In this document: positions 2,407-45,727 of the stretch, piece by piece
Layout: the number at the start of each line of letters is the position of its first letter
Position numbering within the stretch: position 1 is the first letter of the stretch
Virus record (IMG/VR): IMGVR_UViG_3300020193_000024
Location: 1 to 57,504 of that record
Source: a virus
DNA: 57,504 nucleotides
Strand: one strand, 5' to 3'
Translations under genes and position numbers: made by a program
The notes under the pieces: generated by a model
Told to the model about the DNA's origin: nothing
The model's database searches: none
Seen by the model: only the letters and a program-made list of their open reading frames with translations

Positions 2407-3882
2407 TCAACGAAATAGGAACTCTATATAAACATTTTTATTGTCATTAGTTGGTTGCACACCAATCCTGGTCCTAAATTCGTTTCTTTCTGCTTGCTCT
2501 GGCGTGTCCAATTCGTTGGTTTGGATTATGTAGTCGTTAATCCCGCCGCCGTTTTTCACCTGTCCCATTACCCGTTCACAGATTTGGGCAAATTCCTCAC
2601 GGAATGATTCATTGCTCATATCTACGGTCGGAGTAAGTGTATCAGCAGCGTTACGAATACGCTTCTCAACGAAGAAAAGCATCCGTCGCACGTCGATACG
2701 TCCCCTCTGCAAGGTTTTCTGACTTGAAATCATGAAACCTTCTGCATTGGCGAACGGAACAATCGCATTCACTACATTTCGGTTGTCCTTAGTTAAGTTT
2801 TGTTCCTCGTATGTCAAACGACACGATACATCCAACACACCAGAAACAATACCCCTCGTCTCCCCGGTAGGAGAAAACCAGGGTGCGGATAACGTGTCCG
2901 ACCTAGCAATCGCTGCCATCACCGAACCAGATGGTGGCACCGTAACTTCTGTACGGTTATATTGGTCCCTGATTTGCAACCAGGGCCAGAACATAGCGGC
3001 AAAGTCAGACTTCCAATGAATGTCGTTTTCGTACTTACCCCTCTGCCACAAAGAGCTTTCAAGGTAAGATAATCCAACCGGAGAATCAATAATGGCTAAA
3101 CAGTCACGACGACTCTCACATACATCCAAAAGACTTGCTATTACCTGCGTCGAGGAGCAACCTGGAACAGCGATAAGGTCAATATCCACCTGCTCAGGTT
3201 CTGAAAAGGCATACACACCAGACAATTCTTCTTTACTACCAGCTAACAAAATATCACGCTCATCCGGGTCGGTCGGAATTCCGTCATTGCCCCCGTTTAG
3301 TGAATAAATGCCATTCTGCGGTAATTTAGAAGTAGCTGCACTGCTTACCCTAATCCAGTCAGATACCAGTTCGATGAAACTCTCAACGTAGTATTTGCTA
3401 TTTTGCTTTTTAGTAAGCTGACTCCATGACTCAACCTGCACGCCGTTGTGGAACACATTCAACGTGAAAGTTTCTGCCATCTCATCAGTCATTACAACAA
3501 CTCGGGTATCATTCCCTTCCACGCCAGGACTGTCTGCCTGAATTATTAAAGACACTTCGCCCGCTTCATCCAAAACTAGCACACTGGCCGTCTTGCTCAA
3601 ACTTGCGTCAGCGACTCTAACGATAAGGACTTCCGGTAATGTTAATAGGGCTTGCTCTGCACCATATATCAGATGAGATTCACCTGACTCTGGATGAGGG
3701 TATCCAAACGACGAATGCAATTCTTGCACTGTACGCACCGACGTTACGGCGTTAACAGCCCCCTTGCTGGCAAATCCAACCAAGGCTCCCTTGTGGCAGC
3801 TTGGACGAACCTCACCAGTGATTTCAACTGGCATGCCAGGGTCTAGTGCATTCGATGGCGGAAAACCTCTCAAAATTGCCAT
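2407..3882 (-). CDS. 18: contractile tail sheath protein (T4 gp18-like)
   Basis: Forms the contractile sheath around the tail tube. It is 491 aa, in the usual phage sheath range (T4 gp18 is 659). It shows the family signatures: an N-terminal G-F-A-S-K-G-A domain, FGYPHPESGESHLIYGAEQAL, LRGV/VRVADAS strands, DCLAIIDSPVGL, a long middle domain with FWPWLQIRDQYN, and the conserved C-terminal domain with LTYEEQN, NVVNAIVPFAN, RGRIDVRRMLFFVEKRIR and the final IGVQPTND..VYIEFLFR. It is followed by the tube gene and preceded by gp15. No strong ribosome site is visible; AAATATATG directly precedes the coding sequence. Confidence 0.9.
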   Translation of the reverse strand: MAILRGFPPSNALDPGMPVEITGEVRPSCHKGALVGFASKGAVNAVTSVRTVQELHSSFGYPHPESGESHLIYGAEQALLTLPEVLIVRVADASLSKTASVLVLDEAGEVSLIIQADSPGVEGNDTRVVVMTDEMAETFTLNVFHNGVQVESWSQLTKKQNSKYYVESFIELVSDWIRVSSAATSKLPQNGIYSLNGGNDGIPTDPDERDILLAGSKEELSGVYAFSEPEQVDIDLIAVPGCSSTQVIASLLDVCESRRDCLAIIDSPVGLSYLESSLWQRGKYENDIHWKSDFAAMFWPWLQIRDQYNRTEVTVPPSGSVMAAIARSDTLSAPWFSPTGETRGIVSGVLDVSCRLTYEEQNLTKDNRNVVNAIVPFANAEGFMISSQKTLQRGRIDVRRMLFFVEKRIRNAADTLTPTVDMSNESFREEFAQICERVMGQVKNGGGINDYIIQTNELDTPEQAERNEFRTRIGVQPTNDNKNVYIEFLFR

Positions 3883-15320: not shown

Positions 15321-15542
15321 ATGCTGTTGCACATTAGGCGAACGGGAAAAGTTGCCGTGGACGAAATGTGTGTGTGTGGCCACCCGAAATCCCTTCATGG
15401 GAGCCACACACACCACGGCGAGCGTCAGATGCTACGAGTTGCGGAATCTGGCAACTGTTGTGCGGGCGAATGCGCATGTGCCAGATTCCGTTGGGCAAGC
15501 TGGATTTACGATGAGACTAGGCAACAAAAGCACGCTCTCTAA
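15321..15542 (+). CDS. small Cys/His-rich zinc-binding protein
   Basis: 73 aa. The pattern CVCGHPKSLHGSHTHH ... CCAGECACARFRW fits a small zinc-binding module of a type common in phages and actinobacteria (C-x-C-G-H-P-K-S-x-H ... C-x-C-x-x-F). The function is unknown; protein or nucleic-acid binding is likely. Start ATG 15321 follows an AAAGGTTGG ribosome site; ATG 15366 (MCVCGHPK) is an alternative. Its 3' end overlaps the NAMPT gene, on the other strand, by 26 bases. Confidence 0.68.
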   Translation: MLLHIRRTGKVAVDEMCVCGHPKSLHGSHTHHGERQMLRVAESGNCCAGECACARFRWASWIYDETRQQKHAL

Positions 15543-16911
15543 TTTCATCCAGCGTCGTTGTGTACATGACTTTCCCGTTGAGGAAAACGTCCAGAAGATA
15601 GTCAGTTCTCGGGTCGCCCGGCCCGGCAGTCACAAGTTTTGGTTTTCCTCCAGCCACAGGACTTTCAGCCCCTAACACTAGCTTCATTCGGCCATGCTTA
15701 GAGTGCTTCCTTGGGTCTGTCGATGGCTGCTTGAACACCGCTTGTTCAACTCCGTTAATGATTGCACTGGAGCATTTGAAGGCAAATCTCTGTGTGTCTC
15801 TGTTGAGCTTTTGCAATAACCCCCCACCAGAACCGAATGCGATATTGTCTGTGGACCACCGTGCGCTTTTCAAGGCTTGCAAACAAGTCTTGAAAGTTGG
15901 GAAGTCAATGCCGTCGCCCTGGATAACCCTTACCTTGGGATGAAGCATCATGTATCCTTTGGCGTTTTTCTCTGTGCCGAACACCTGCCCTGTCCAGGCA
16001 ATGACTTGTAACAAGGTGTCGGGTAGCTTGCCAGAGTCGGGCCTAATGACTAGGATGCCGTCTCGGGCATACACTTGTTCTTTTAGTGTGTGCCAGGTTC
16101 CCATAATGGCTGAGTTGATGTCGTAGGAATCACTAACGACTGCCACCAAACCAGTTGGGTATTGTTCCAGCATGTTCCTGAACGCATCGTTTTGTCCCTT
16201 ACTGCCCCAGCATGTCATTGTGCTGTGTTCGGCAGCAGGGATTGAGTACCCGGCAACTGGACAAGAATAGTAGTCTCTGGCCACAACTAAAGCTTCCAGG
16301 GTGTCTGTGCCTTTGAAGTTGACCAGGTGGGCACAACCGCCCAACCCGGCAGATTCAACAGAACTCACACCCCGGAAGCCGAAGTCATGTAATTTGAAGT
16401 CTACTAGAAGTGGGTCGCCGGTATCTTCCAAGTAGTTCAGCAGCATGATTTTCATTTCTCGGGACTGAGTAGCGACCGTGCTACCGTACCACACCTGCAC
16501 TAGTAGTGTCTCAAGATAGCTAGTTAGCCAAGCACATGCCGGGTCTGTGTTCTCTACCGTCATCATGACGTTGTTAATGGGAACGCATGTTCCTTCCTGC
16601 ACCGCCTTGATGCGGATAGGCAGGTGCCCGTCGTGTTTCTCTAGGATGTATTCCCACCCTTTGCGGTTGAAAAGAGTCGGGTCATTGAAGTGCTGAGCAA
16701 ATAAGGCGGCAGCTTCTTCAATCTTTTCTTTAGTGACTACCTTGCCCTCAAGGTATTTCTTGAGGATGTATTGCAAGCTAAAGAAACAAGTTTCAGGGAA
16801 AACCGCACCATCCCTGCACTCCATGTAGGAGTACACATACTCTGTGCCAGGCGGGTACTGTCGCCAGTGGGTGACTTTGTAACTGTCAGTTAGCAGGAGC
16901 AGATTGTTCAT
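15517..16911 (-). CDS. nampt: nicotinamide phosphoribosyltransferase
   Basis: Makes NMN from nicotinamide and PRPP, the first step of NAD salvage. 464 aa, close to the 465-490 of the family. The similarity runs end to end: DSYKVTHWRQYPPGTEYVYSY, LHDFGFRGVSSVESAG and NFKGTDT, PAAEHSTMTCWG (active-site loop), VVSDSYDINSAI, RPDSGKLPDT, VIQGDGIDFPT, FGSGGGLLQKLNRDTQRFAF. It overlaps the upstream uracil-DNA glycosylase gene by 26 bases, so they are co-transcribed. In phage KVP40 the homologue is natV. A role in refilling host NAD pools, or in resisting NAD-depleting defence, is inference. Confidence 0.93.
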   Translation of the reverse strand: MNNLLLLTDSYKVTHWRQYPPGTEYVYSYMECRDGAVFPETCFFSLQYILKKYLEGKVVTKEKIEEAAALFAQHFNDPTLFNRKGWEYILEKHDGHLPIRIKAVQEGTCVPINNVMMTVENTDPACAWLTSYLETLLVQVWYGSTVATQSREMKIMLLNYLEDTGDPLLVDFKLHDFGFRGVSSVESAGLGGCAHLVNFKGTDTLEALVVARDYYSCPVAGYSIPAAEHSTMTCWGSKGQNDAFRNMLEQYPTGLVAVVSDSYDINSAIMGTWHTLKEQVYARDGILVIRPDSGKLPDTLLQVIAWTGQVFGTEKNAKGYMMLHPKVRVIQGDGIDFPTFKTCLQALKSARWSTDNIAFGSGGGLLQKLNRDTQRFAFKCSSAIINGVEQAVFKQPSTDPRKHSKHGRMKLVLGAESPVAGGKPKLVTAGPGDPRTDYLLDVFLNGKVMYTTTLDEIRERAFVA

Positions 16912-19433: not shown

Positions 19434-21053
19434 ATGAAATATATCCTCTTTGTTCTTTTGTTTGTTTGCATCATAGCTCCTGCATTTATCCTGGCTCAGG
19501 ATAATCCGCCAAAACAAGCTCCGCTAGTTGCTGTAAAGTTGTATACGCCCGATAGTGCAGTCAAGTTTGCAGCGGCTGATATTGCTACTCTGCCGCCCGA
19601 AGAAGCAAAGTTTACTCGTTATCTGTCACTTTACAGCATCCCTCCAGAACGGAGAAGGGCGTATGGACAGACCCTATCGTTTGTTGTTAATTCACTGAGT
19701 CAACGTCGCCGAATTTACATTCCTGTTTTTGTTGGTGGAACGGATGAAACTCTCATTCGTATCAACATTGAGAACTACGATTGGGATGCTCAGTCGTGGG
19801 AGAATTTGGGCAAGAAGGGCAGTGGTGTCAAGCCTCAAGCCGAACCCTATTTTCATGCGCTGATAGAAAAAATTGACTCAACGACCAAGCTAGAACGCAA
19901 AACTATTACCAGAAAAAAGAAAGTTGAAACTGGTTATTATAACCAAGCGGGTCAGAAGCTATATAGAGAAGTCGAAGTAACGGAGGAGGTTGATGTAGAG
20001 GTCAAAGGCGACCCTGTGAAGAACAGGGTTTTAGCGGCGGCTCCTTGGGTAGACCCTGTGGCTATTGCAGCCCTTATCAAAGCAACTAATTCAGAGTTCC
20101 CTGTAATGAGGGCCGATTGGTTTATTATTAAGGCTACCCTGCCTCCTGCTTACTACGACTTCCTCAAGTTAGGGGATGACATCAAGGATTTTGAGCGTCT
20201 TATCTTTACTGACCAGAAATTAGCAGAGAAGGCACGTTCACAATTCAAGGGTGTTGTCGTAACCTCTATTGTTGCTCGCAACAACAGAACTTTGCTGCGA
20301 AGTCCGACGTTCACCAATGGCTACTATTGGCAGAGCCACGACTCCTTGAGCAGCGTTGATGACCGTCAGTATGTGCAGAATATATTGAATGAAAAGTTCG
20401 ATGCAACTGAGGATATTGGTACGTTGCCAAATGGCTTGCAAGCCTATTTCCTAACGGATGGCAAAGGAAAACGGTTAGACTTTGCCAACCCCGACGTTGC
20501 TATCGACAACACGGCAGTAGACCGTATTGTACGAACTGGTCGTAGTTGCATGATATGTCATAGTGAGGGAATTAAGCCTATAGATGACGAAATTCGAACT
20601 CTAACCAAGAAATTACAGAATAAAGAAGCCATCAAGCTCTTAATAGCTAACAAAGAAGATGCTTTCAAGATTGATGACCTGTTCGGCACAGACTTGGATA
20701 AGCAAATTATAAAAGACCAAAATATTTTTTCCGAGGCCGTGGCTGAAACTACAGGACTTCCGATGGATGTGAATGCAAAACAGTATGCCGCTATTTACGA
20801 TTGGTATGCTGAGCATCTACTTACAGTAGAGGACGTTGTGCGGGAGGTTGGTTTACCGCCCGACTTGTTAGAAAAGTACGTCCGGCTGAGTAATGACAAT
20901 GTGATATTGGGGCTGGTTAAACAGCCCATTCGACCCATTCGGCGTGACCAATGGGAACGGTCCTTCCAAGGCTTTATGATAATTGTCATTGCGGCACAGC
21001 AGGGTGCAGTGCCGATTCAGCCTCAACCGCCTTTTGTAAAACAAACCCAATAA
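19434..21053 (+). CDS. secreted heme-binding (c-type) protein
   Basis: 539 aa. The signal peptide is at residues 1-21 (MKYILFVLLFVCIIAPAFIL ending ILA|QD). A single CxxCH heme motif (SCMICHSEG) lies at about residue 365, preceded by the block GTLPNGLQAYFLTDGKGKRLDF and IVRTGR. This LPNGLQ...DG-x-G-x-R-L...SCM-x-CH order is one I know from secreted cytochrome-like proteins of planctomycetes and other predatory or surface-rich bacteria. It should sit outside the inner membrane, bind one heme covalently and need the host's cytochrome-c maturation. No electron partner other than the next gene is visible. Confidence 0.75.
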   Translation: MKYILFVLLFVCIIAPAFILAQDNPPKQAPLVAVKLYTPDSAVKFAAADIATLPPEEAKFTRYLSLYSIPPERRRAYGQTLSFVVNSLSQRRRIYIPVFVGGTDETLIRINIENYDWDAQSWENLGKKGSGVKPQAEPYFHALIEKIDSTTKLERKTITRKKKVETGYYNQAGQKLYREVEVTEEVDVEVKGDPVKNRVLAAAPWVDPVAIAALIKATNSEFPVMRADWFIIKATLPPAYYDFLKLGDDIKDFERLIFTDQKLAEKARSQFKGVVVTSIVARNNRTLLRSPTFTNGYYWQSHDSLSSVDDRQYVQNILNEKFDATEDIGTLPNGLQAYFLTDGKGKRLDFANPDVAIDNTAVDRIVRTGRSCMICHSEGIKPIDDEIRTLTKKLQNKEAIKLLIANKEDAFKIDDLFGTDLDKQIIKDQNIFSEAVAETTGLPMDVNAKQYAAIYDWYAEHLLTVEDVVREVGLPPDLLEKYVRLSNDNVILGLVKQPIRPIRRDQWERSFQGFMIIVIAAQQGAVPIQPQPPFVKQTQ

Positions 21054-32241: not shown

Positions 32242-32556
32242 ATGGAAACGTTCCGGGAGTTCTTAGGGCAAGTTGAAAATGATTACTCCGACCACCAGGT
32301 TGTCAACCTTTATCTCAACGAACCAGGCCGAAAAATCAGCGAAATTGCTCAAGCAACCAACAAGTCGATTGGTGAAATTTACAGGATTTTGCACTCGTAT
32401 AATGTGCAGCCTAACCGTTTACGGACAAACCAACAAAATGTCATTGATTTCGCCACAGCAGGTATGGGAATATCTCAAATAGCCGAGTTGACTGGATATT
32501 CTTCGAGAAACGTTCGTTACATTCTTAACAAACTGAAATTGGAGAAAAATGCCTGA
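32242..32556 (+). CDS. double-HTH protein with N-terminal tag
   Basis: 104 aa. It begins METFREFLGQVE, the capsid-targeting-like start. Two helix-turn-helix units follow: ISEIAQATNKSIGEIYRILH and ISQIAELTGYSSRNVRYILN, both of the kind found in DNA-binding regulators. A tagged DNA-binding protein would be packed with the genome and injected, acting before any phage transcription. Late box CTAAATA four bases before the ATG. Overlaps the next gene by 8 bases. Confidence 0.7.
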   Translation: METFREFLGQVENDYSDHQVVNLYLNEPGRKISEIAQATNKSIGEIYRILHSYNVQPNRLRTNQQNVIDFATAGMGISQIAELTGYSSRNVRYILNKLKLEKNA

Positions 32557-33376
32557 TATAGTTAAGTTCTTTCTTTCAGGTGGAGCAAGTAACTCTAACC
32601 CAAATTTATCTTTGGGCGGCGTAATGTCGTCCGTAGAAATCGACTTCTCTGACCCACAAGACAACCTGTTTGATGACGTTCTTTCAGGCGATGCTTTGAA
32701 TGGGTATATCGACTACCGTTGTTTTTACATCATGAACGTGACCACCGGCCTTGACGCTGTGACTGTCCACAACTTGGAGGTACAGATAGATTCTGAGGTT
32801 TCGGGCGGCTCGGACATTGTTCTAGGGGATGATTTGTTGGATGATATGCAGTTGTTAATAATCAGTGGCACTCCTGACGTAAGTGCAAGTCCAAACGTGC
32901 TTTTCAACGTTCCAGGGTGGGGTGTATCCTTCCAAGCTTATTATGGCACAACGGGCATTCCTGCTGACGACATAGTTACTTTTGCCGAGAACATTCAAAC
33001 CGAGATGAATGCCCAGTCTGTTTTTACTGGCGTTACTGCTGTCGCTTTAGATGACATAACAATACTTGTCACTTTTGAGGGATTTCCGGCTAACCACCTG
33101 ATGCCACTTATTGATATAATAAGTGGAAACCTTGGTGGCGGTGCGACGTTAAGTGTGGCCAAACAGCAAGATGGCGGGCCTGTCCTTGTGACTGCCGAAA
33201 CCATACCTAATGAAAGGGTAACGCCATCCGTAACACTTGGTTTGACATCGCTGTCTATTGGCGAACTACAGGCGGGCGAGTATTTCCCTGTGTGGGTGAA
33301 ACGAGTGACCCCGCCTAACTCAGCCGCACTTCTGAACGATAACTTCGTTCTGAATGTGACTGGGGATTATCCATAA
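32549..33376 (+). CDS. probable virion protein, beta-rich
   Basis: 275 aa. Begins MPDIVKFFLSGGASNSNPNL with NLFDDVLSGDALNGYIDYRC, and ends in a strand-rich region (YFPVWVKRVTPP) typical of phage tail-fibre or adhesin modules. The start overlaps the previous gene, with a GGAGAAAA ribosome site. It is a good candidate for a structural or receptor-contact protein, though the family is not one I can name. Confidence 0.6.
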   Translation: MPDIVKFFLSGGASNSNPNLSLGGVMSSVEIDFSDPQDNLFDDVLSGDALNGYIDYRCFYIMNVTTGLDAVTVHNLEVQIDSEVSGGSDIVLGDDLLDDMQLLIISGTPDVSASPNVLFNVPGWGVSFQAYYGTTGIPADDIVTFAENIQTEMNAQSVFTGVTAVALDDITILVTFEGFPANHLMPLIDIISGNLGGGATLSVAKQQDGGPVLVTAETIPNERVTPSVTLGLTSLSIGELQAGEYFPVWVKRVTPPNSAALLNDNFVLNVTGDYP

Positions 33377-33394: not shown

Positions 33395-33946
33395 ATGAAG
33401 AAAATTCTTTCCATCGCTATTGTGTTACTGGCTGTGAGCCTTGTACACGGTCAGGTTGTAACTACCGAAAGAACTATAGGTGATTACAAGGAGGACTTAG
33501 AAAAAGTAACTAAGTATTCCAAGGAGGTTGGCAAACTAGCAACCTATAGGAGTGCTTCGTTTAAGAACAACAAAACAGGAGAGGTCAAGAAGTTTAACGA
33601 ATTGCCTGATTTTGAAAAGAACATTTTCTGTCTTTTCCAAAAGTTGAAATTTGAAGACAGCCTGAAAAAGCTGCAAGAGGATTGGGTTACTAACTTCAAG
33701 AAGCTCAACGCCGACGCCGACAAGGGGAAGGCCGACGACCCTGATACGGCAGTGGCCAAAGCCAGTCATGTGAGCAAGGCCCTAGATAGTCTGTTTGAGC
33801 TAAGGAAACAGGCCGCAGTGGATGCGGAAGCTACCTTAGAAAAGATTTTCAAGGACTTTCCCGACAAGTTTGATGAGAAGGAAAGGGAACTTACTCTCAA
33901 ACAGTTAAAAGAGATGCATGATAAAGAAAAGTTGATTAAGCGATAA
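33395..33946 (+). CDS. secreted helical protein, unknown
   Basis: 183 aa. Signal peptide MKKILSIAIVLLAVSLVHG|Q. The mature part is Lys/Glu-rich and almost all helix (TIGDYKEDLEKVTKYSKEVG; LKQLKEMHDKEKLIKR). It could be a periplasmic scaffold or host-envelope inhibitor. Starts 18 bases after the previous stop; its own stop overlaps the McsA-like start (TAATG). Confidence 0.62.
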   Translation: MKKILSIAIVLLAVSLVHGQVVTTERTIGDYKEDLEKVTKYSKEVGKLATYRSASFKNNKTGEVKKFNELPDFEKNIFCLFQKLKFEDSLKKLQEDWVTNFKKLNADADKGKADDPDTAVAKASHVSKALDSLFELRKQAAVDAEATLEKIFKDFPDKFDEKERELTLKQLKEMHDKEKLIKR

Positions 33947-34323
33947 TGGAAGAACATCCACCATTTAGTTCCCTTTACGAACTTCTGGATTATGTGATTA
34001 AACACACATCACCAGGCAGCAAGGTGTTTATGGGAACAACCCCAACCCCCATTAAACCATCTTGCCCTGCCTGTGGATGGACTCTTGCCGACATCGCTCA
34101 CCACGCACGCCTGGGTTGCGGTGAGTGTTACGAACACTACAAAGAAGAACTACTCCCCGTGATACTGCACGCTCAGAAAGCAGTTAGGCATGTCGGCAAG
34201 CATCCTAAGAACAAGCAGGAGTCACTAGAGGAATTGAGGGTACGACTAGCACACGCCGTCAAGGAAGAAAGATACGAAGATGCTAGTGAAATCAAAAAGC
34301 TCATCGAAAATTACAAAAACTAG
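33946..34323 (+). CDS. McsA-like zinc/UVR protein
   Basis: 125 aa. McsA is the partner that activates the protein-arginine kinase McsB, which marks proteins for ClpC/ClpP. The match is good: CPACGWTLADIAHHARLGCG then ECYEHYKEELLPVILHAQ gives the C-x-x-C ... R-L-G-C-x-x-C-Y pattern (Cys 40, 43, 58, 61), then G-K-H-P, then a UVR motif (EELRVRLAHAVKEERYEDAS). The kinase itself is absent from the window. By inference the phage protein would act on the host McsB/Clp system. The start overlaps the previous stop. Confidence 0.75.
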   Translation: MEEHPPFSSLYELLDYVIKHTSPGSKVFMGTTPTPIKPSCPACGWTLADIAHHARLGCGECYEHYKEELLPVILHAQKAVRHVGKHPKNKQESLEELRVRLAHAVKEERYEDASEIKKLIENYKN

Positions 34324-44458: not shown

Positions 44459-45727
44459 ATGTCAATGCTAGAAGACGCCAAAAAGCAGTTAGAAGCTGCG
44501 TACAAATTTGCAGAAATCGACCCGGAAAGCTGGGAGCGTCTGCAATATCCCCAACGTACTCTTCAATGTGCAATTCCTATGCGCCACGATGATGGCACTC
44601 TCAAGATATACAAGGCGTTCAGGTGTCAGTATGATACCACACTTGGCCCTGGAAAAGGAGGCATCCGGTTTCATCCCGCTGTGGACCGTGACCATGTGGA
44701 GGCTTTGGCCTTCTGGATGACTTTTAAGTGTGCCGTCGTCAAAATCCCCTTCGGCGGCGCAAAGGGTGGAATATCAGTTGACGCCAAATCTTTATCCCAC
44801 CGGGAGTTAGAAAGATTAAGCAAGGCATACATAGCTGCCTACGCCGACTTCATTGGTCCCGACGTAGACATCCCTGCGCCCGATATGTACACCGACGAGC
44901 GGGTCATGGGGTGGATGTATAGCGAATACCGCAAGATTAAGGGTGGACACCCCAAGAACATTGTTACAGGGCTTCCTGTGGCTCTAGGGGGCATCGAAGG
45001 CCGCAACTCGGCGACTGGTTACGGCGGTTACTATGTTCTGGAGAACGTTCTGACCCATAAAGACTTCCCTTTGAAGTTCGACAAACCAATTAGCATAGCC
45101 CTACAAGGTTTTGGCAAGGTGGGTTACTGGTTCGCAGAGAAGTGCATGGGGGCCAAACTGCCTATCAACATTGTGGCTATTTCTAATGAGTATGGCGGCA
45201 CTTATTGCCATGCCGGGCTAACTCCGGTACAATGTCGGCAGTCGTTAGATACAACGGCTGAGAAGGCATGGGGTCAAGGGACTCCAATCAGCAATGACGA
45301 ACTCCTGGGGCTAGATGTCGATGTACTGGTTCCAGCCGCCATTGAGAACGTAATCACGGCAAAAAATGTGGACGCTATCAAGGCTAAGGCGATTCTGGAA
45401 CTGGCAAACGGCCCAATTACAGCCGAAGCTGACTCTATTCTATATGACCGTGGGACTGTAGTGGTGCCGGATATTCTGGCGAATGCAGGTGGTGTAGTTG
45501 TATCCTACTTCGAGTGGGTGCAAAACCGAAATGGTCAAGAAAAGACCATTGAAGAAGTAGATGCCGGGCTTAGAAAGATAATGGGGTACGCAACAGAGCG
45601 AACCCTGTCCAGGTACTTCAAGCATAAGATTAGCATGAGAACTGCTGCTTATGCTCTGGCTTTAAGGAGAATTGCCGCAGCTAACGAATGCCTTGGCAAT
45701 AGGTCTTACTTTCATCAAGGAGTGTAA
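44459..45727 (+). CDS. gdhA: glutamate (Glu/Leu/Phe/Val-type) dehydrogenase
   Basis: Interconverts glutamate and 2-oxoglutarate plus ammonia with NAD(P). 422 aa, full family length. All key parts are there: GPGKGGIRFHP, FKCAVVKIPFGGAKGG (catalytic Lys 102), PDVDIPAPDMYTDERVMGWM (catalytic Asp 142), GLPVALGGIEGRNSATGYGG and the Rossmann ALQGFGKVGYW (about 215-224). It is a complete metabolic enzyme 1.6 kb from a lysine aminotransferase, whose co-substrates are the same 2-oxoglutarate and glutamate. TGAGGA is a distant ribosome site. Its stop overlaps the next ATG. Confidence 0.93.
   Translation: MSMLEDAKKQLEAAYKFAEIDPESWERLQYPQRTLQCAIPMRHDDGTLKIYKAFRCQYDTTLGPGKGGIRFHPAVDRDHVEALAFWMTFKCAVVKIPFGGAKGGISVDAKSLSHRELERLSKAYIAAYADFIGPDVDIPAPDMYTDERVMGWMYSEYRKIKGGHPKNIVTGLPVALGGIEGRNSATGYGGYYVLENVLTHKDFPLKFDKPISIALQGFGKVGYWFAEKCMGAKLPINIVAISNEYGGTYCHAGLTPVQCRQSLDTTAEKAWGQGTPISNDELLGLDVDVLVPAAIENVITAKNVDAIKAKAILELANGPITAEADSILYDRGTVVVPDILANAGGVVVSYFEWVQNRNGQEKTIEEVDAGLRKIMGYATERTLSRYFKHKISMRTAAYALALRRIAAANECLGNRSYFHQGV

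Follow-up and report, generated by a model that had tools for sequence, protein, structure and literature searches.

McsA is the bacterial switch of the protein-arginine kinase McsB. Phosphorylation of arginine serves in bacteria as a degradation tag, and proteins that have been tagged by McsB are degraded by ClpCP. The tagged proteins are read by the N-terminal domain of ClpC (PMC12583610). In McsA of S. aureus, the zinc finger formed by Cys87/90/105/108 contacts the McsB loop Y147–Y153 and orients the catalytic Cys157, as attributed to Lu et al. in the review PMC12467219. Components of Clp proteolysis also occur in viruses, wherein jumbo phages encode ClpS and ClpP (PMC7824862). A search of the open-access literature, which covered titles and abstract openings, gave no paper on a phage McsA among the matches listed.

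The locus described here lies in a stretch of 57,504 bases (the window), which is a complete IMG/VR record. An McsA-like gene occupies positions 33946 to 34323 of the forward strand, with its ATG at 33946 and its stop at 34323, and encodes a product of 125 amino acids (P0001) that is recognized by profile, PDB-chain, and structure matches. The reverse strand opposite this gene is interrupted by stops.

Homology to the C-terminal half of McsA

Sequence and structure together firmly establish that P0001 is a homologue of McsA, corresponding to the C-terminal half of that protein. The protein matches the NCBIfam McsA model (NF053706; E 6.3e-13, 48.9 bits) at profile positions 74 to 169 of 182, and it matches two PDB chains: 8gqd_E, a 59-residue McsA chain in complex with McsB (E 1.1e-9), and 8wtb_B, a 187-residue McsA (E 2.5e-7). 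The latter, from a chymotrypsin-trimmed McsA/McsB crystal, pairs with P0001 along McsA residues 78 to 173. A profile made from four distinct phage proteins aligns with 8wtb_B from near the N terminus through the UVR region (E 1e-21), and it matches a 14-sequence bacterial McsA profile with 99.9% probability (E 8e-35). Matches of this strength are not expected by chance. The McsA-type order of cysteine pairs and UVR-like region that was proposed in the initial annotation is borne out. Identity between P0001 and the bacterial McsA rows is about 24 to 39%, and its score misses the NF053706 equivalog cut-off of 210 bits. The copy from phage record LR756511 (P0002, 77.7 bits) and two bacterial McsAs encoded beside mcsB (L010, 176 bits; L017, 138 bits) likewise fall below this cut-off.

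Taken alone, the structural evidence is moderate. An AlphaFold2 model of P0001 has a mean pLDDT of 74.4 and a pTM of 0.38. Its top three Foldseek matches are all to McsA taken from structures of the McsA/McsB complex. They have a probability of 1.00, E values of 5e-3 to 2e-2, and low TM-scores of 0.32 to 0.40 for the whole model. Alignment with McsA by VIA-align gives a Z of 6.1 across 83 residues, where the first unrelated chain reaches 3.4. Assignment to another zinc or UVR family, which the initial annotation had named as the outcome that would count against it, is not favored. UvrB matches are confined to the hairpin and are weaker than those to McsA (E 0.03–0.04 with the phage profile), and the ribosomal S27a/eS31 zinc ribbon is a weak alternative (NCBIfam E 0.0026, PDB E about 0.5, Pfam 0.11). 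Searches of PHROGs with P0001 and of BFVD with its model returned no match below E 0.065 and E 1, respectively.

The second zinc-finger domain of McsA corresponds to residues 39 to 87 of P0001 (positions 34060 to 34206, forward strand), which are covered by the 8gqd_E match. The only cysteines of P0001, at residues 40, 43, 58, and 61, form the pattern C-x2-C-x14-C-x2-C, and these four cysteines and their spacing are identical to those of the S. aureus finger. They are followed by an H-x-G-K stretch (HVGK, residues 82–85) and then by a UVR-like helical hairpin (residues 92–125; 34219 to 34320, forward strand). This hairpin is degenerate, in that a near-invariant R-D pair is replaced by K-K, and the Pfam UVR model scores it at 15.7 bits (E 0.013), under the cut-off of 21.5; two helices are predicted in the model. 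A bacterial McsA, L028, also scores below this cut-off (18.6 bits), and P0002 and L010 score above it. Among 14 bacterial McsAs, a subset of 31 loci, 31 positions are conserved in at least 90% of the sequences. P0001 keeps 13 of 16 such positions in the finger domain and 5 of 8 in the UVR region, and none of the 7 in the first zinc module. Each of the four distinct phage copies misses 2 to 4 of the 16 finger positions, and all four cysteines are kept throughout.

The N-terminal zinc module of McsA (C-x2-C ... C-x2-C) is absent from P0001, which begins past that region. The copies P0002, L038, and L039 carry an N-terminal module of the form C-x6-C...VTEV...C-x2-C, whose counterpart in the alignment is the first of the two zinc modules of bacterial McsA. 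Because these sister phages retain a modified first module, the single zinc site noted in the initial annotation is correct for the window copy and peculiar to it. In bacteria, the short form has a precedent in L028 (3986–4333, forward strand), a natural minimal McsA of 115 amino acids that lacks the first zinc module, whose gene sits between a ctsR-like frame, recognized by eye, and mcsB. The term “McsA-like adaptor” used in the initial annotation is fair as a statement of homology, upheld by profile, tree, and structure search, and is to be amended in that the protein is a truncated McsA.

Phage lineage and the search for McsB

Phage genes of the window include those for a tail sheath (2407 to 3882, reverse strand), tail tube, sheath stabilizer, head-tail adaptor, and a portal-like protein, which place the locus in a contractile-tailed phage; a scan of the window gave no tRNA and no Rfam match. 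The window is syntenic with LR756511, an uncultured phage record of 595,163 bases, and this synteny and the tail genes support the claim that the McsA homologue is phage-encoded. LR756511 probably belongs to the huge phages described by Al-Shayeb et al. (PMC7162821); the accession LR756511 does not occur in the passages of that paper that were consulted.

Upstream of the McsA-like gene, all on the forward strand, are genes for a 104-residue helix-turn-helix protein (32242 to 32556), a conserved 275-residue protein of the syntenic block with no assigned function (32549 to 33376), and a 183-residue protein with a signal peptide, as judged by eye (33395 to 33946). In the window, the last of these genes and the McsA-like gene share one base, at the stop of the former and the start of the latter. 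When the helix-turn-helix protein was used as an anchor in IMG/VR, five more loci were found: L038 (G004, 187 kb), L039 (G005, 58.5 kb), L040 (G006, 341 kb), L041 (G007, 99 kb), and L009 (G001, 48 kb). The McsA-like gene is present in five of the seven lineage records (window, LR756511, G004, G005, and G006). G005 and G006 encode one and the same protein sequence, which leaves four distinct copies, and P0001 is only 35 to 41% identical to the others. In all four (window, LR756511, L038, L039) the gene lies directly behind the signal-peptide gene, with an overlap or a two-base gap, and the surrounding gene order is common to the window, LR756511, L038, L039, and L040, within a phage gene block. 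The McsA-like gene is absent from L041 and L009, where the helix-turn-helix anchor has diverged further (46% and 43%).

Retrieval of L038 to L040 succeeded only with an alignment of the helix-turn-helix anchor (A3), and a scan with the single anchor protein gave L009 only. Pattern scans of IMG/VR for McsA itself recovered L002 and L003 with P0001, each through the UVR part only, and nothing with A1, A2, or P0002. A corresponding scan for McsB yielded no relative. Since such scans missed known McsA copies, the failure to find further McsA or McsB genes of phages in IMG/VR carries little weight.

The Pfam model PF00217 was empty in two records and in 0 of 14 control genomes found its target, and it was replaced by tblastn with bacterial McsB. 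McsB of a Pedosphaera genome had no match in the window (G000), G001, or LR756511, and McsB of an Omnitrophota genome had none in all seven lineage records; both control genomes were matched in each case. The initial annotation had seen no McsB in the window, and this holds both there and in the six further records of the lineage. Outside the lineage, an McsB-family reading frame adjoins mcsA in 28 of 31 loci (24 of 27 in bacterial genomes and all 4 phage-filed fragments). At the other three (L012, L013, and L036) the contig ends within 170 bases past mcsA. One of these McsB-family neighbors was named protein arginine kinase by the scan, and the others were linked to it by BLAST. Among 50,697 phage records, McsA-like matches occur in nine and McsB matches in nine, with both in eight, and LR756511 is the only McsA-bearing record without McsB. 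The INPHARED records OR844998, OR850055, OR847648, OR849235, OR849498, MT836804, MT835711, and MT835788, which carry mcsA and mcsB, resemble fragments of bacterial chromosomes.

Other Clp-related genes occur in the lineage. LR756511 encodes a free-standing 208-residue protein with two Clp_N repeats (140396–141022; L037:4397–5023, reverse strand) that is 43 to 44% identical to the N terminus of an Omnitrophota ClpC, and both of its GTEH glutamates align with their bacterial ClpC counterparts. These glutamates probably correspond to E32 and E106 of the phosphoarginine site, in the numbering of B. subtilis ClpC. None of the six remaining lineage records gave a match to this protein; Clp_N-like stretches also exist in two phages of Mycobacterium, Myrna (gp251) and Phabba. 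A ClpP-family protein of about 202 residues, whose Ser and His motifs resemble catalytic ones on visual inspection, is encoded by LR756511 (L052:2580–3188, forward strand) and G006 (L053, about 3091–3609, forward strand), and was not found in the window, G004, G007, or G001.

Additional cargo was observed. LR756511 encodes a signal-peptide protein with a stretch that by eye resembles a caspase-type fold motif (IDAHG ... DTCHSG; L052:197–889, reverse strand). The window includes frames for a nicotinamide phosphoribosyltransferase (15517–16911, reverse strand; Pfam) and a glutamate-dehydrogenase-like protein (44459–45727, forward strand; by eye), both metabolic genes. It also holds a block of apparently exported proteins that is unusual for a phage (18465–22645), one of which has a c-type cytochrome domain. 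A 539-residue CxxCH protein in this block is 54 to 56% identical in LR756511, L038, and L040.

Origin and possible role

In a maximum-likelihood tree of 35 rows, the four distinct phage proteins group together with full support (100/100), and the branch leading to them has a length of 3.75 changes per column. The deeper branching order is not resolved, and long branches occur in several rows, that of the window included, so the tree names no donor phylum. The single phage clade suggests that an McsA homologue probably entered the ancestry of this huge-phage lineage from a bacterium in one old event, and the sequence comparison indicates that the window copy lost its first zinc module thereafter. 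In a search for the host, the 539-residue secreted protein (19434 to 21053) was not found among 145 Omnitrophota and 145 Verrucomicrobiota genomes, in a search run with no positive control; among phages it matches LR756511 only, and one distant match lies on a Neorhizobium plasmid. The tail sheath shows 24 to 28% identity among the 15 of 2390 matches listed. The host may be one without McsB.

With McsB not found in any of the seven lineage records, the phage protein probably acts on a host kinase. Retention of the McsB-contacting finger favors binding and activation. We tentatively prefer, with slightly less than even confidence, a reading of these sequences wherein the phage McsA homologue, kept without a partner kinase, binds and most likely activates host McsB. 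The protein would be made during infection alongside the upstream exported protein, would remain in the cytoplasm, and would dock on host McsB through its C40/C43/C58/C61 finger. McsB would then be switched on, and arginine-phosphorylated proteins would pass to host ClpC/ClpP at a time set by the phage. The window copy, with its first zinc module gone and its UVR region weakened, would be left with mainly the kinase-facing finger. Points that weigh against this reading are the low identities and long stem of the phage copies, the score under the equivalog cut-off, the low pTM and whole-model TM-scores, and the lack of the gene in the more distant records L009 and L041.

A dominant-negative fragment might show the same losses. 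Such a decoy or brake would occupy McsB without activating it, or keep it off ClpC, CtsR, or host McsA, so that phage proteins are spared arginine tagging and ClpCP. Phage interference of a related kind is described in PMC6873191, where SPO1 Gp53 competes with MecA for ClpC. However, the three sister copies keep both modules, indicating that truncation is not a lineage-wide design; the short McsA of L028 is paired with mcsB; and the finger that the phages retain is the activating element according to PMC12467219. A decoy seems unlikely. Low sequence identity and the long stem also fit an altered function, and the zinc/UVR scaffold could have been repurposed for a partner other than McsB, such as a Clp ATPase, the Clp_N protein of LR756511, or a virion component. 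The change of the first zinc module to C-x6-C in the sister phages, the tight coupling to the exported-protein gene, and the presumed status of host McsB point the same way. The conserved finger positions, including the four cysteines, are nonetheless kept in every distinct phage copy apart from the few noted above, and we regard repurposing as doubtful. Finally, a chromosomal mcsA might have been assembled into a viral contig, given that several records filed as phage with McsA (MT835711, MT835788, MT836804, OR844998, OR850055, and others) also hold McsB. The window has no mcsB, and its gene order is that of LR756511, L038, L039, and L040 inside a phage block, which makes contamination or a chimeric record exceedingly improbable.

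If activation of host McsB is indeed the role, or even binding alone, phages would possess a means of influencing protein-arginine phosphorylation, and no report of such a link was found in the open-access literature. The window protein, a natural minimal McsA that is mostly finger, would then reveal how much of McsA is sufficient to drive the kinase. It is also conceivable that the Clp_N and ClpP proteins belong to a phosphoarginine-Clp toolkit. A huge-phage set of this kind would have no writer of its own, and would combine an McsA-type activator with the Clp_N protein of LR756511 and the ClpP of LR756511 and G006, borrowing host McsB and reading or diverting its tags. We consider this quite improbable; if true, it would constitute phage control of protein-arginine phosphorylation, which is absent from the papers searched.

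Comparison with known systems

The phage protein most closely resembles McsA (NF053706; PDB 8gqd, 8wtb, and 8wtc), with which it shares the cysteine spacing of the second finger, the HxGK stretch, a UVR-like hairpin, and a linker helix before the finger. It differs in being carried by a phage, in that mcsB is missing both from its neighborhood and from the rest of the searched records, in the loss of the first zinc module and of the UVR R-D pair, and in a score far below the family cut-off. The UvrB and UvrC proteins resemble it in the UVR hairpin, to which the weak UvrB matches are limited, and have no such finger. By role, it may be likened to SPO1 Gp53, another small phage-encoded protein that probably directs a host Clp protease. 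The target of Gp53, however, is ClpC itself, and Gp53 was a poor competitor of McsA/McsB (PMC6873191). The ClpS of jumbo phages offers a further parallel as a Clp-protease adaptor carried by large phages without the entire machine, as presented in PMC7824862, although ClpS works on ClpAP, whereas McsA works via a kinase.
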